The position numbers and the translations under genes are program-made. From an uncultured Actinomycetes bacterium (GTDB lineage: Bacteria > Actinomycetota > CADDZG01 > WHSQ01), in NCBI GenBank assembly GCA_937863385.1, contig CALMBW010000027.1, positions 62,001 through 126,000 on the forward strand: a DNA stretch of 64,000 nt, in the 5' to 3' direction. The notes under the pieces are model-generated. The model saw only the letters and a list, made by a program, of their open reading frames with translations, ran no database searches and was not told the origin of the DNA. Shown here one piece after another: positions 44,905-49,572 of this stretch; the first letter of the stretch is position 1, and every line of letters begins with the position of its first letter.

Positions 44905-45630
44905 CTAAACGGCCCGGAGCATCTCCAACGACCGCAGAGGGCGCTCGAGGTGGAACTCTGCATAACGTCTCAACAGATCCGTCACCTCTTCCACCCATCC
45001 GACCGATGCGACGGTGCCGAAGTCGGCAGCGAGCAACGAGTCGATCCATGCCAATCGCTCGGGAGCAAGCCCGATCGCCTCGGGGTCGTCGATCCAGCAG
45101 CTCTCGCAGACCGCTCCGCCCAGTGACGGCGAGAAGCCCCCGAGGAATCCGCCCGAACCACATCCGGCGCATCCCGTCAGCTCGGGATTGAACCCCGTCA
45201 CCGACAAGAGCTTGACCATGAACGCCGGCAGAACGGTGGGACCAAGATCCCTGCCTAACGATTCGAGGCCCAGTTGCAACAAGTGATAGATCGGCGAGGC
45301 CTCTTCACGATCCGGCGTGATCTTCTCGACGAACTCGGCCATCACCGTTGCAGACGCCAGCGATTCGAAGTTGCGATGGACCCCGGTGTTGGCGTCGACG
45401 ATGTCGGCACCGGTGATCGTGTCTAGCTCTCCCCTGCCCCGATAGACGAGCAGCTCCACCCGGGTGAAGGGTTCGAGCCGGCCACCGAAACGGCTCTTGG
45501 TCTTGCGCACGCCCTTGGCGACGGCACGGACCTTGCCGTTATCGCGCGTGAATATCGTGAGGATGCGATCCGCTTCCCCCAGCTTGATCGTCCGTAGGAC
45601 GATCCCCTCATCGCGATAGAGCCCCGGCAT
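44905..45630 (-). CDS. recO: DNA repair protein RecO
   Basis: This 241-residue recombination mediator loads RecA with RecR. The OB-fold N-terminus 'YRDEGIVLRTIKLGEADRILTIFTRDNGKVRAVAKGVRK' and the zinc-finger cysteines in 'CAGCGSGG' and 'CESCW' are present. ATG at 45630 is preferred over the frame start at 45642. Its upstream region contains the first 57-bp palindromic repeat and the divergent DUF559 gene, so the normal link to era is broken here. Confidence 0.95.
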   Translation of the reverse strand: MPGLYRDEGIVLRTIKLGEADRILTIFTRDNGKVRAVAKGVRKTKSRFGGRLEPFTRVELLVYRGRGELDTITGADIVDANTGVHRNFESLASATVMAEFVEKITPDREEASPIYHLLQLGLESLGRDLGPTVLPAFMVKLLSVTGFNPELTGCAGCGSGGFLGGFSPSLGGAVCESCWIDDPEAIGLAPERLAWIDSLLAADFGTVASVGWVEEVTDLLRRYAEFHLERPLRSLEMLRAV

Positions 45631-45674
45631 CAGACCCCTCAATCTAGGGTCGCCGCCTGGGCCAAGCCCGGATT

Positions 45675-45731
45675 TCCCAGCGTTCTGTTAACGAAATCGG
45701 CCAACAGTTGGCGGGATCTGTTAACAGAACG
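45675..45731. repeat. 57-bp concentric palindromic repeat, copy 1
   Basis: Identical over 57 bases to the copy at 46690-46746. It contains 12-bp arms CGTTCTGTTAAC (45681-45692) and GTTAACAGAACG (45720-45731), and an inner palindrome CCAACAGTTGG (45701-45711); both are centred on base 45706, so the DNA or RNA can form a two-stage hairpin. It lies upstream of recO and of the divergent DUF559 gene. Confidence 0.95.
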
Positions 45732-45732
45732 A

Positions 45733-45748
45733 AGTGAGGGGGCTCACT
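45733..45748. promoter_or_regulatory. Palindrome upstream of DUF559 gene
   Basis: AGTGAG (45733-45738) and CTCACT (45743-45748) form a perfect 6-bp dyad with GGGG between, directly after the first repeat and 33 bases before the ATG at 45781. It is a possible operator for the winged-helix protein encoded downstream or for recO. Confidence 0.4.
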
Positions 45749-45780
45749 CGTTCGCTGTATGACTGTGGTTCGTTCAGGGC

Positions 45781-46752
45781 ATGACCTTTCATCCAGCTCT
45801 TGAAGAGCTCGAACGTCACGCGCGGGCCAACCTTGGCGTGATCCACAGGCAGCACGCGCTAGCCGCCGGAGTATCCGATCGGACCATCGTCAGGCTCGTA
45901 GCTTCGGGGCACTGGACCAAGATCCACACCAATACGTTCGTACCCCGTCCCGTTCCTCTGTCCTGGGAAACCCTGCTTCGAGCGGCGTGCGTCGAAGGCG
46001 GAGAAACGACTGTCGCCGCGGGCAGGGCTGCGCTACGGCTCCTTGAGTTCCCTCGCTACGCCAAAGCTGATCTTGAGGTCGCCAGCCCCAAGAATCTCCG
46101 TCTCAACGGCGTCAGGTGTCGCAAGCTACGGGGCATGCGGCCGGAGGACATCGTGTGGATCAAGGGCATACCCGCCCGCCGCTTCGAGCCAACCCTCTTG
46201 GAGCTGTGCGGCGATCCCAGCGAGAGGATGTTCTGCGGGGCTCTGCTAGATGAGGCTCTCCGCAGGAAGCTGACGCACCTCCGCTGGCTGTACCGCACCT
46301 GTTCGGTCTATGGAAAAAGGGGCCGGCGTGGGACGAGGCTGTTCCGCCATCTCGTCATGCAAAGAGATGCCGAGACGGCCCTCACGGACAGTGAGCTTGA
46401 AAGCTACTTCCGACGGATGAGCAAGCTTCTAAGCCACAAGCTCCTGCTTCATCACGTTGTGCGTGATGAACACGGGAAGCACATATCGGAAGTCGACTTC
46501 GCGATCCCAGAGCTGCAGATCGCCATCCCTCTTAATGGCTACGACCCGCATAGCATGCGATCGACTTGGGACAAGGACCATCGGATCTACGTCCTCCTCC
46601 AGAATCAGGGGTGGGAGGTGCTGCCGTTCACCTACTGGCAAGTGCGCAACGACCTCGCTTGGGTACTCGGACAGATAGAGATCGCGATCTCCCAGCGTTC
46701 TGTTAACGAAATCGGCCAACAGTTGGCGGGATCTGTTAACAGAACGGGTTAG
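45781..46752 (+). CDS. AbiEi-type winged helix plus DUF559 nuclease-like protein
   Basis: This 323-residue protein has an N-terminal winged helix ('GVIHRQHALAAGVSDRTIVRLVASGHWTKIHTNTFVP') like the AbiEi antitoxin domain, a middle part with 'ETTVAAGRAALRLL', and a C-terminal DUF559/Vsr-like fold ('HISEVDFAIPELQIAIPLNGYDPHS', 'HRIYVLLQNQGWEVLPFTYWQVRND'). The usual catalytic E-x-D-G reads PLNG, so activity is doubtful. The last 20 or so residues are encoded by the second 57-bp repeat. Such genes are mobile in actinobacteria. It lies between recO and a cold-shock-like gene and is convergent with the latter, with a 4-base overlap of stops. Confidence 0.82.
   Translation: MTFHPALEELERHARANLGVIHRQHALAAGVSDRTIVRLVASGHWTKIHTNTFVPRPVPLSWETLLRAACVEGGETTVAAGRAALRLLEFPRYAKADLEVASPKNLRLNGVRCRKLRGMRPEDIVWIKGIPARRFEPTLLELCGDPSERMFCGALLDEALRRKLTHLRWLYRTCSVYGKRGRRGTRLFRHLVMQRDAETALTDSELESYFRRMSKLLSHKLLLHHVVRDEHGKHISEVDFAIPELQIAIPLNGYDPHSMRSTWDKDHRIYVLLQNQGWEVLPFTYWQVRNDLAWVLGQIEIAISQRSVNEIGQQLAGSVNRTG
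46690..46746. repeat. 57-bp concentric palindromic repeat, copy 2
   Basis: This is a perfect second copy of the repeat at 45675-45731, in the same orientation, 1015 bases away. Arms are at 46696-46707 and 46735-46746, with the inner palindrome at 46716-46726. It forms the 3' end of the DUF559 gene and ends just before the stop of the convergent gene. Confidence 0.95.
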
Positions 46753-46946
46753 GAGATGCCTATGCGCAGGTTGAGTGGGCGGTTGTCTTGGAGATCGAAG
46801 GTGACCCTCTGGCCGGGGCGCAGGAACCGGAACATGCCGGACTCCATGGACTCCGGGGTGATCTCCCAGGTCGCCTCCCCGTCATCCGCGACCAGCACGC
46901 CGGTCTTGGTCAACGAGTCGTACGACTTAACGGTTGCCTGGGGCAT
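46749..46946 (-). CDS. Cold-shock-domain-like protein
   Basis: This 65-residue protein starts 'PQATVKSYDSLTKTGVLVADDGEATWEI' and ends 'FRFLRPGQRVTFDLQDNRPLNLRIGIS', with the layout of a single OB-fold cold-shock domain. The aromatic RNP motifs (KGFGFI, VFVHF) are much reduced: 'TKTGVLVADDG'. It is therefore a divergent nucleic-acid-binding or other OB-fold protein. It is the last gene of the operon starting at hrcA, 9 bases after the ABC-2 permease. Confidence 0.75.
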   Translation of the reverse strand: MPQATVKSYDSLTKTGVLVADDGEATWEITPESMESGMFRFLRPGQRVTFDLQDNRPLNLRIGIS

Positions 46947-47708: not shown

Positions 47709-48664
47709 ACGTCGGCCTCCTCGATGGAACGGCCGCCCAGTTCGAGATAAACGTCTTCGAGGGTCGGAGTGATCAAGCGAACGTCTTCGAAGGCATCCGC
47801 GCCCGCTGTGGACATGATCTTTTCCAGCTGACGCACGGCATCGTCTGCGGGAACCCAAGCCGAGACGTGGCGGCCGCGGACCCGTGCCTCACCTGGGATA
47901 TCTCTGGCAAGAGCGAGTGGGTCAATTGTTGTGCTCGCTGCAAGGACGATGTCGATTCGTGTGCGATGAGACAGATCTGCCTTCAGCTCGGCCGGGGTGC
48001 CGCTAACGACGACACGGCCTCGGTCCAAGATCGCGACCCTATCCAGTGCACGTTCGGCCTCGGCTACATCGTGGGTCACCAGGATCACCGTCGTACCAGC
48101 GGCGCAACGTTGCTCGATCAGATCCCAGATACGCTGCCGCAGAGCGACGTCGATGTCGGCGGTCGGTTCGTCCAGGATCAACACGGGAAGACGCCCCGCG
48201 AAGGTCATCCCGAGTTGCACGAGTCGTTTCTGCCCGCCCGAGAGCTTGCGCACCTGACGGTCCGCGATCGGATCGATCGAGAGCACCGACATCAGTTCGC
48301 CGGCTTCGTTGGCAGCACCCTGCTTGGCCATGCCTCGCAACATCGCTACCCAGCGGATCGCCTCTTGCACCTTGAGCTCGCCCAAGCTGAGAGAACCCTG
48401 CGGCAGGTATGCAACGGTGCGGCCGATACGCTTCTGGGCAGCGCGGGATGCAACTATGGTCTCGCCGAACAGACGCACCGTTCCGGATGACGGGGTCAGT
48501 AGTCCTACTAGCTGTTTGACGAGCGTCGACTTGCCGGCCCCGTTGGGGCCGAGTAGACCAAACGCCTCGCCCGGGCGGACATCGAACGAGATGTCGTCGT
48601 TGGCGAGGACATCAGGCGTCCGGTACCTCTTGGTCAGGTTCTCTACGAGGTAGGCCTTGTCCAT
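47705..48664 (-). CDS. ABC transporter ATP-binding protein
   Basis: This 319-residue ATPase has Walker A 'LLGPNGAGKSTLVKQL', signature 'VRKLSGGQKRLVQLGMTF', Walker B 'VLILDEPTADID' and H-loop 'VTHD'. ATG at 48664 shares one base with the era stop (TGATG). The extra C-terminal 80 residues end 'TPTLEDVYLELGG', typical of drug/lipid export ATPases. It works with the permease encoded next. Confidence 0.92.
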   Translation of the reverse strand: MDKAYLVENLTKRYRTPDVLANDDISFDVRPGEAFGLLGPNGAGKSTLVKQLVGLLTPSSGTVRLFGETIVASRAAQKRIGRTVAYLPQGSLSLGELKVQEAIRWVAMLRGMAKQGAANEAGELMSVLSIDPIADRQVRKLSGGQKRLVQLGMTFAGRLPVLILDEPTADIDVALRQRIWDLIEQRCAAGTTVILVTHDVAEAERALDRVAILDRGRVVVSGTPAELKADLSHRTRIDIVLAASTTIDPLALARDIPGEARVRGRHVSAWVPADDAVRQLEKIMSTAGADAFEDVRLITPTLEDVYLELGGRSIEEADV

Positions 48665-49572
48665 CAGCCCATCGCCTCCGTCGTGAACCCCAAGCGCTCG
48701 AGAGCATGCGATCGGCGTTGCCAATCCTTCTCGACCTTGACGCGGAGATCCAGGAAGACGCGCGCGCCGAACAGCAACTCGATCTCTTCACGCGCGGCGA
48801 TACCTACCTCCTTGATGTTGGCGCCGCCCTTACCTATGACGATGCCCTTCTGTGAATCCCTCTCGACGAAGATGGTCGAGTGGATCTCGAGAAGGCCATC
48901 TTCTCTTTCTTCGAAGTCGTCTGTGACCACTGCTACGGAATGGGGAACCTCTTGCTGCGTACGAGCCAGGATCTTCTCGCGCACCAGTTCGGCTACGAAG
49001 CGGGGTGGAGGTTGATCACGTCGCTGCCCCGGCTCGTAATACATGGGCCCCTCGGGCATCCGGGCAGCCACCAGGTCGCGTAGCAGATCCACCTGCTGAC
49101 CCGAGCGAGCGGACAACGGAACGAACTCGTCGAAGTCTCCGAGTGCCGAGGCAGCAGTGAGAGCCTTGACGACGGCTGCTCTGTCCATGATGTCGGTCTT
49201 GTTGACGATGCAGAAAGTAGGACAGGCCGCGGCTGCCAGGTCACCGGCCACCTTCTCATCGCCACGACCCACTCCGGAGTGCCCATCGACAACGAACAGG
49301 GCCAGGTCGACGTCGTTCCACGCATGCCGGACCACCTCGTTGAGCCTCTCCCCCAAGAGGGTGCGAGGCTTGTGATAGCCGGGGGTGTCAACGAGAACCA
49401 CTTGGCACCCTTCGAGGTCCATCACGCCACGGATCGCGCTACGTGTCGTTTGGGGCTTGTCGGAGACGATCGCGACCTTCTCGCCTACCAGCGCGTTGAC
49501 GAGAGTGGACTTGCCGGTGTTGGGACGCCCAACGACCGCGACGAAGCCAGAGCGGAATCCCGGCGAGTTCAT
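48664..49572 (-). CDS. era: GTPase Era
   Basis: This 302-residue GTPase assists maturation of 16S rRNA and the 30S subunit. The G1 box 'VGRPNTGKSTLVNALVG', G2 'TTRSAIRG', G3 'DTPGYHKP' and G4 'NKTD' are present, with the C-terminal KH domain 'GKGGANIKEVGIAAREEIELLFGARVFLDLRVKV'. Start ATG at 49572 overlaps the corC gene (ATGA). The expected neighbour recO is separated from it by the ABC transporter, csp-like and DUF559 genes. Confidence 0.97.
   Translation of the reverse strand: MNSPGFRSGFVAVVGRPNTGKSTLVNALVGEKVAIVSDKPQTTRSAIRGVMDLEGCQVVLVDTPGYHKPRTLLGERLNEVVRHAWNDVDLALFVVDGHSGVGRGDEKVAGDLAAAACPTFCIVNKTDIMDRAAVVKALTAASALGDFDEFVPLSARSGQQVDLLRDLVAARMPEGPMYYEPGQRRDQPPPRFVAELVREKILARTQQEVPHSVAVVTDDFEEREDGLLEIHSTIFVERDSQKGIVIGKGGANIKEVGIAAREEIELLFGARVFLDLRVKVEKDWQRRSHALERLGFTTEAMG

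Follow-up and report, generated by a model that had tools for sequence, protein, structure and literature searches.

A nuclease-like gene between nested palindromes in an uncultured actinomycete, a probable relic from a proposed new class of minimal mobile elements

RAYTs, the enzymes of the REP systems, are tyrosine transposases of the HUH type whose REPs are tagged by GTAG, and for REPs tagged by CGTC no enzyme is known (PMC3733652). Two other protein groups bear on the locus described here: promoters of AbiEi genes contain inverted repeats to which the encoded proteins bind (PMC7319586), and I-Bth0305I, an enzyme of the EDxHD class, forms a dimer on its target, which spans almost 60 bp (PMC3943268). 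In the openly licensed literature we found no paper linking DUF559 or AbiEi to palindromes or transposons, and phage records gave no match. Genes of the AbiEi/DUF559 type are common in actinobacterial genomes, where they carry uninformative names.

Here we analyse one such gene in a stretch of 64,000 nucleotides from an uncultured Actinomycetes bacterium, hereafter the window. A first-pass annotation, made from the letters and their reading frames, had described it as lying between two identical 57-bp direct repeats. These were confirmed: the blocks at 45675-45731 and 46690-46746 are 100% alike at a spacing of 1015 bp, and remain alike over 61 bp when one mismatch is allowed. Chance origin of the pair is excluded by the 57 identical bases. 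Each block holds a 51-bp unit with the layout CGTTCTGTTAAC-X7-GCCAAC-N-GTTGGC-X7-GTTAACAGAACG, in which the 12-bp arms CGTTCTGTTAAC/GTTAACAGAACG and the inner palindrome CCAACAGTTGG share one centre, base 45706 in the left copy, in agreement with the concentric arrangement first noticed. As a single strand the palindrome folds at -16.2 kcal/mol, seven standard deviations better than its own shuffles (z = -7), which answers the suggested check on hairpin folding. Neither GTAG nor CGTC is present on either strand of the 51-bp unit, and an Rfam search of the window returned tRNAs only, which excludes the palindrome as a known RNA family. The features of the locus are the following:

44905-45642, minus strand: recO, the left neighbour; the gap between recO and the csp-like gene is empty in six relatives
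45681-45731, no strand: left 51-bp nested palindrome (family A), within the block 45675-45731; homology with one mismatch starts at 45671, and the edges are sharp in the logo of 18 copies
45781-46752, plus strand: gene for an AbiEi-like winged helix plus DUF559/EDxHD nuclease, 323 aa; Pro250 replaces the catalytic Glu and Asn252 the next Asp; fold taken from a homologue
46528-46530, plus strand: codon 250 (Pro), a catalytic Glu in 101 of 103 homologues, by homologue comparison
46696-46746, no strand: right 51-bp nested palindrome, within the block 46690-46746; encodes the C-terminal 20 or so residues in frame
46749-46946, minus strand: gene for a csp-like small protein, the right neighbour; its stop codon lies 3 bp from the right palindrome

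The open reading frame thus enters the second block, as had been claimed. The location proposed for the gene, where era and recO are normally close, was right only in part: recO adjoins it, with the csp-like gene on the other side, but era is found at 48664-49572 and the gene is not directly between the two. No DUF1814 (AbiEii) toxin gene adjoins it among these neighbours, and an AbiE operon is excluded for the window gene on that ground. In six relatives, which belong to other genera of the family, recO and the csp-like gene are separated by 21-138 bp with no gene and no palindrome. A further relative (G010) carries in the same gap a different AbiEi-DUF559 gene, in the opposite orientation and with 76-bp palindromes of its own (L077, contig C117, 829-2028). 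The gap is a possible insertion hot spot.

The two domains named in the first-pass annotation, AbiEi and DUF559, are recognized clearly by Pfam (AbiEi_4 and DUF559) in most homologues tested, but fall below threshold in the window protein itself. Across the window protein and the homologues tested, the only Pfam models matched were AbiEi, DUF559 and MTES_1575; a PADLOC AbiEi model matched the window protein at 5e-13. In a structure model of one homologue (pLDDT 86), Foldseek aligned the first two thirds with the Streptococcus agalactiae AbiEi protein 6y8q (E 1.9e-6) and the C-terminus with the catalytic domain of the homing endonuclease I-Bth0305I (3r3p, TM-score 0.75 by target). Judged from this model, the family looks like an AbiEi antitoxin joined to a nuclease of the EDxHD (I-Bth0305I) kind. 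Conservation among 103 homologues is strong at the motifs S-x-L-E, D, E-x-D-G and H, and 101-102 of them keep the catalytic E and H. The second Glu is absent from only two sequences, a badly aligned fragment and the window copy, where it is Pro250; the family therefore carries the EDxHD catalytic residues and the window copy does not (E to P). Because its catalytic Glu is replaced by Pro, the window nuclease is probably a catalytically dead relic, although its reading frame is open. The description of the gene as a nuclease consequently suits its homologues, with their conserved active site, better than the window copy, and the window cassette either inserted before activity was lost or was moved in trans.

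The palindrome is not confined to the locus. Whole-genome searches identified 18 sharply bounded copies, the window pair included, and no half-decayed intermediates. A comparison of their 36 half-sites shows next to no variation in the 10-bp outer arm or in most of the inner arm and a variable 7-bp spacer; the logo built from the 18 copies has conservation ending abruptly at the outer CG. The window pair is mutually identical, and the remaining copies differ from it at 3-7 of 47 positions. Left and right spacers within one copy agree at 50 positions against 67 expected from random pairings; they are less alike than random, and the element may therefore have a polarity or orientation. Among the lone copies, 13 of 16 lie outside open reading frames (picked by a simple heuristic), often at most 40 bp from one. 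Searches of 15 further genomes from the family gave no match to the window palindrome, nor did a pattern scan of a genome contig collection that possibly lacks this genome's own record. An opening CGTTCTG, or a close variant, is often seen in palindromes of unrelated genera (L142, L151, L153, L163, L173) as well as in that of the window.

This genome has three AbiEi-DUF559 genes in total, all bracketed and each by different repeats. One paralogue (L046) has on either side, in direct orientation, a 45-bp nested palindrome, CTGTTTCCGGGA...TCCCGGAAACAG, which occurs at two or three further sites in the genome. The other (L045), in which the catalytic residues are intact, lies between inverted repeats of about 240 bp that recur nearby on the same contig. 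In the region around it (about 40 kb, G000:C19, roughly 230-270 kb), tandem repeats of 74 bp and a repeat of 45 bp both recur in either orientation.

The first-pass annotation had suggested a search for repeat-flanked DUF559 genes elsewhere, and about half of the homologues tested have this layout. A protein search of 396 genomes of the phylum yielded 100 usable homologue loci, and each was scored by the best match between left and right flank, direct or inverted, with shifted positions at the same loci as controls. At a cut-off of at least 18, 47 of the 100 homologues were bracketed, against 30 of 1920 shifted controls (1.6%); in about half, a second repeat went undetected. In a second set, made up of named homologues from mycobacteria, 46 of 79 were bracketed, compared with 16 of 1702 controls (0.9%); many of these loci are orthologous at two common sites, so that the 79 do not stand for 79 independent events. 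Nearly all the bracketing repeats are nested palindromes of about 40-55 bp with a gene-specific sequence, mostly less than 150 bp from the gene. The pairs can also be inverted, as in L077, L102, L119 and L277, and double palindromes in tandem on both sides of the gene were seen in L097, L151, L163, L171 and L173. A plasmid gene of Tsukamurella tyrosinosolvens, inspected once the pattern was known, has 41-bp nested palindromes on both sides.

When gene-flanking palindromes were used as queries against their own genomes, extra copies appeared in most of 13 genomes, with dozens in two mycobacteria. The conserved/variable/conserved layout of the palindrome was found independently in mycobacteria and in the genome of the window. 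In most mycobacterial copies, the upstream palindrome stands about 40-44 bp before the start, even where there is no downstream one. At the second mycobacterial site (44 orthologous loci among L254-L325) the upstream palindrome is alone in 27, which suggests more frequent loss of the downstream one. In one genome, two copies of the dispersed palindrome enclose a DUF488-like gene (L180, G391, 804-1503), possibly as a passenger cassette or through two chance insertions.

Protein and palindrome vary together. Similarities of the two are correlated (Mantel r = 0.27, with none of 2000 permutations reaching this value; in a second test, r = 0.48 with none of 3000), and left and right palindromes are 0.86 identical inside a cassette vs 0.60 between cassettes. 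The palindromes also come and go between relatives. Lone palindromes of one mycobacterium are missing in relatives whose flanks are 92-95% identical (L179 vs L197/L198, L182 vs L231); at the occupied and empty pairs compared, no target-site duplication is visible and the flanks differ by small replacements. Downstream of leuS, mycobacterial species have the full cassette, a lone palindrome or an empty site. At another site, which holds the cassette in other species, a single palindrome is present in one (L239 vs L237); in its left half it resembles the left copy, in its right half and right flank the right copy, so that from its sequence it looks like a recombinant of the two flanking copies. 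All loci examined closely are intergenic, and none lies inside an intron, an intein or a coding gene.

We consider it likely that Actinomycetota harbour a class of minimal mobile elements not described before, with the structure palindrome, AbiEi/EDxHD nuclease gene, palindrome, and that the locus is one copy of it, probably now inactive. The broader reading also seems to us fairly probable: AbiEi-EDxHD genes and their nested palindromes would form a widespread, self-spreading repeat system of Actinomycetota, undescribed so far, that is a counterpart of REP/RAYT without being homologous to it; a nuclease acting as a dimer would recognize a palindrome of about 50 bp and spread both lone palindromes and the cassette. 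The idea of a small cassette that moves in association with a hairpin repeat, comparable to REP elements and their nuclease, is thus supported by the distribution of the repeats; from this pattern we infer binding, cutting, copying and transposition, with the nuclease as the driver. In the mechanism we propose, the AbiEi-like part of each protein would recognize its own nested palindrome (about 45-53 bp) as a dimer, one subunit on each half-site of outer arm plus inner arm, and the EDxHD domain would cut at the palindrome. Host repair would then place copies of the palindrome, by itself or less often together with the gene, at new positions between genes. The non-autonomous form would be the lone palindrome, and recombination between the two flanking copies could collapse a cassette to such a form. 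A dimer on a nested palindrome of about 50 bp fits the conserved/variable/conserved layout. Several observations weigh against this reading: a second repeat went undetected in about half of the homologues, the window copy has lost its catalytic Glu, no target-site duplication is visible at the pairs compared, and many mycobacterial loci, being orthologous, do not count as separate events.

The main rival, which could also be an added role, is autoregulation through the upstream palindrome. Under it, the palindromes would be AbiEi operator sites, with the downstream copy acting as a terminator or as another operator and the scattered ones making up a regulon, and the gene would encode a defence or toxin-antitoxin-like nuclease instead of a mobile driver. 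The binding of AbiEi proteins to inverted repeats of their own promoters (PMC7319586) and the match to PADLOC AbiEi models agree with this, as does the mycobacterial spacing: an operator role is suggested because the upstream palindrome there is nearly constant in its distance from the start. As a full account we regard it as unlikely, since it leaves unexplained the matched downstream copies that overlap the gene end, the scattered lone palindromes, their gain and loss between close relatives and their absence from relatives; the window gene, moreover, has no DUF1814 partner gene beside it. The upstream palindrome may well double as an operator, a role compatible with mobility.

Homing offers a different view of the direct-repeat layout, which it fits. 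Lone palindromes would be prior targets, spread by other means, that the nuclease cuts and into which gap repair copies the gene, so that either side keeps one half of the target. The EDxHD fold and the single palindrome of L239, compared with L237, speak for it; the lone palindromes, however, themselves come and go, and the inverted pairs (L077, L102, L119, L277) are unexpected under simple gap repair at one target, which makes this account rather improbable in our view. If an intergenic hairpin had been duplicated locally long ago, on both sides of a gene unrelated to it, this would explain the direct orientation and the 10-bp extension, with one mismatch, past the palindrome. This account is refuted, and we give it almost no weight, by the further copies in the genome, their absence from relatives and the same layout around homologues. 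A repeat without other copies, in relatives that all have gene and repeats in place, had been named at the outset as the sign of such a duplication; we found 18 copies, and six relatives with the site empty.

If the mobile-element reading is true, the strategy of pairing a repeat with a nuclease would have been invented independently a second time, and the system could account for dispersed palindromes of mycobacteria and their relatives. AbiEi/DUF559 genes gain a testable role, with a DNA target predictable from the flanks of each gene, and matched pairs of nuclease and target are on offer for long, specific sites.

Among known systems, the AbiE type IV toxin-antitoxin shares with these proteins the AbiEi fold, found in their N-terminal two thirds (6y8q), and the binding of inverted repeats by AbiEi. 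It differs in that here no AbiEii/DUF1814 toxin gene adjoins and the AbiEi part is fused to a nuclease. Insertion sequences of the IS200/IS605 type and MITEs are likewise small elements with hairpin ends and non-autonomous short derivatives; unlike them, the present elements have no Y1/HUH or DDE transposase and end in whole copies of one palindrome, and no target-site duplication was seen at the pairs compared. With the EDxHD homing endonucleases, the homologues share the catalytic fold and the E/D/H motif, and I-Bth0305I spans, as a dimer, a target of almost 60 bp. The genes described here, in contrast, are intergenic, without intron or intein, have the presumed target on both sides and an AbiEi-like DNA-binding part, and the window copy lacks the catalytic Glu. 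Membership in the RAYT family is excluded, there being no Y1 HUH tyrosine transposase (TnpA_REP) domain or fold and no tag. The enzyme combines AbiEi with EDxHD/DUF559; its palindrome has a nested structure and a length of about 40-55 bp and is, in the window copy, free of GTAG and CGTC. Nevertheless, as in the REP/REPIN and RAYT systems (REPtrons), dispersed intergenic palindromes flank their own enzyme gene, the nuclease gene is bracketed by its own palindrome family, several repeat families in one genome are each paired with one gene, and gene and repeat covary. On the best reading, the system acts like REP/RAYT with an unrelated enzyme and without being a member of it.
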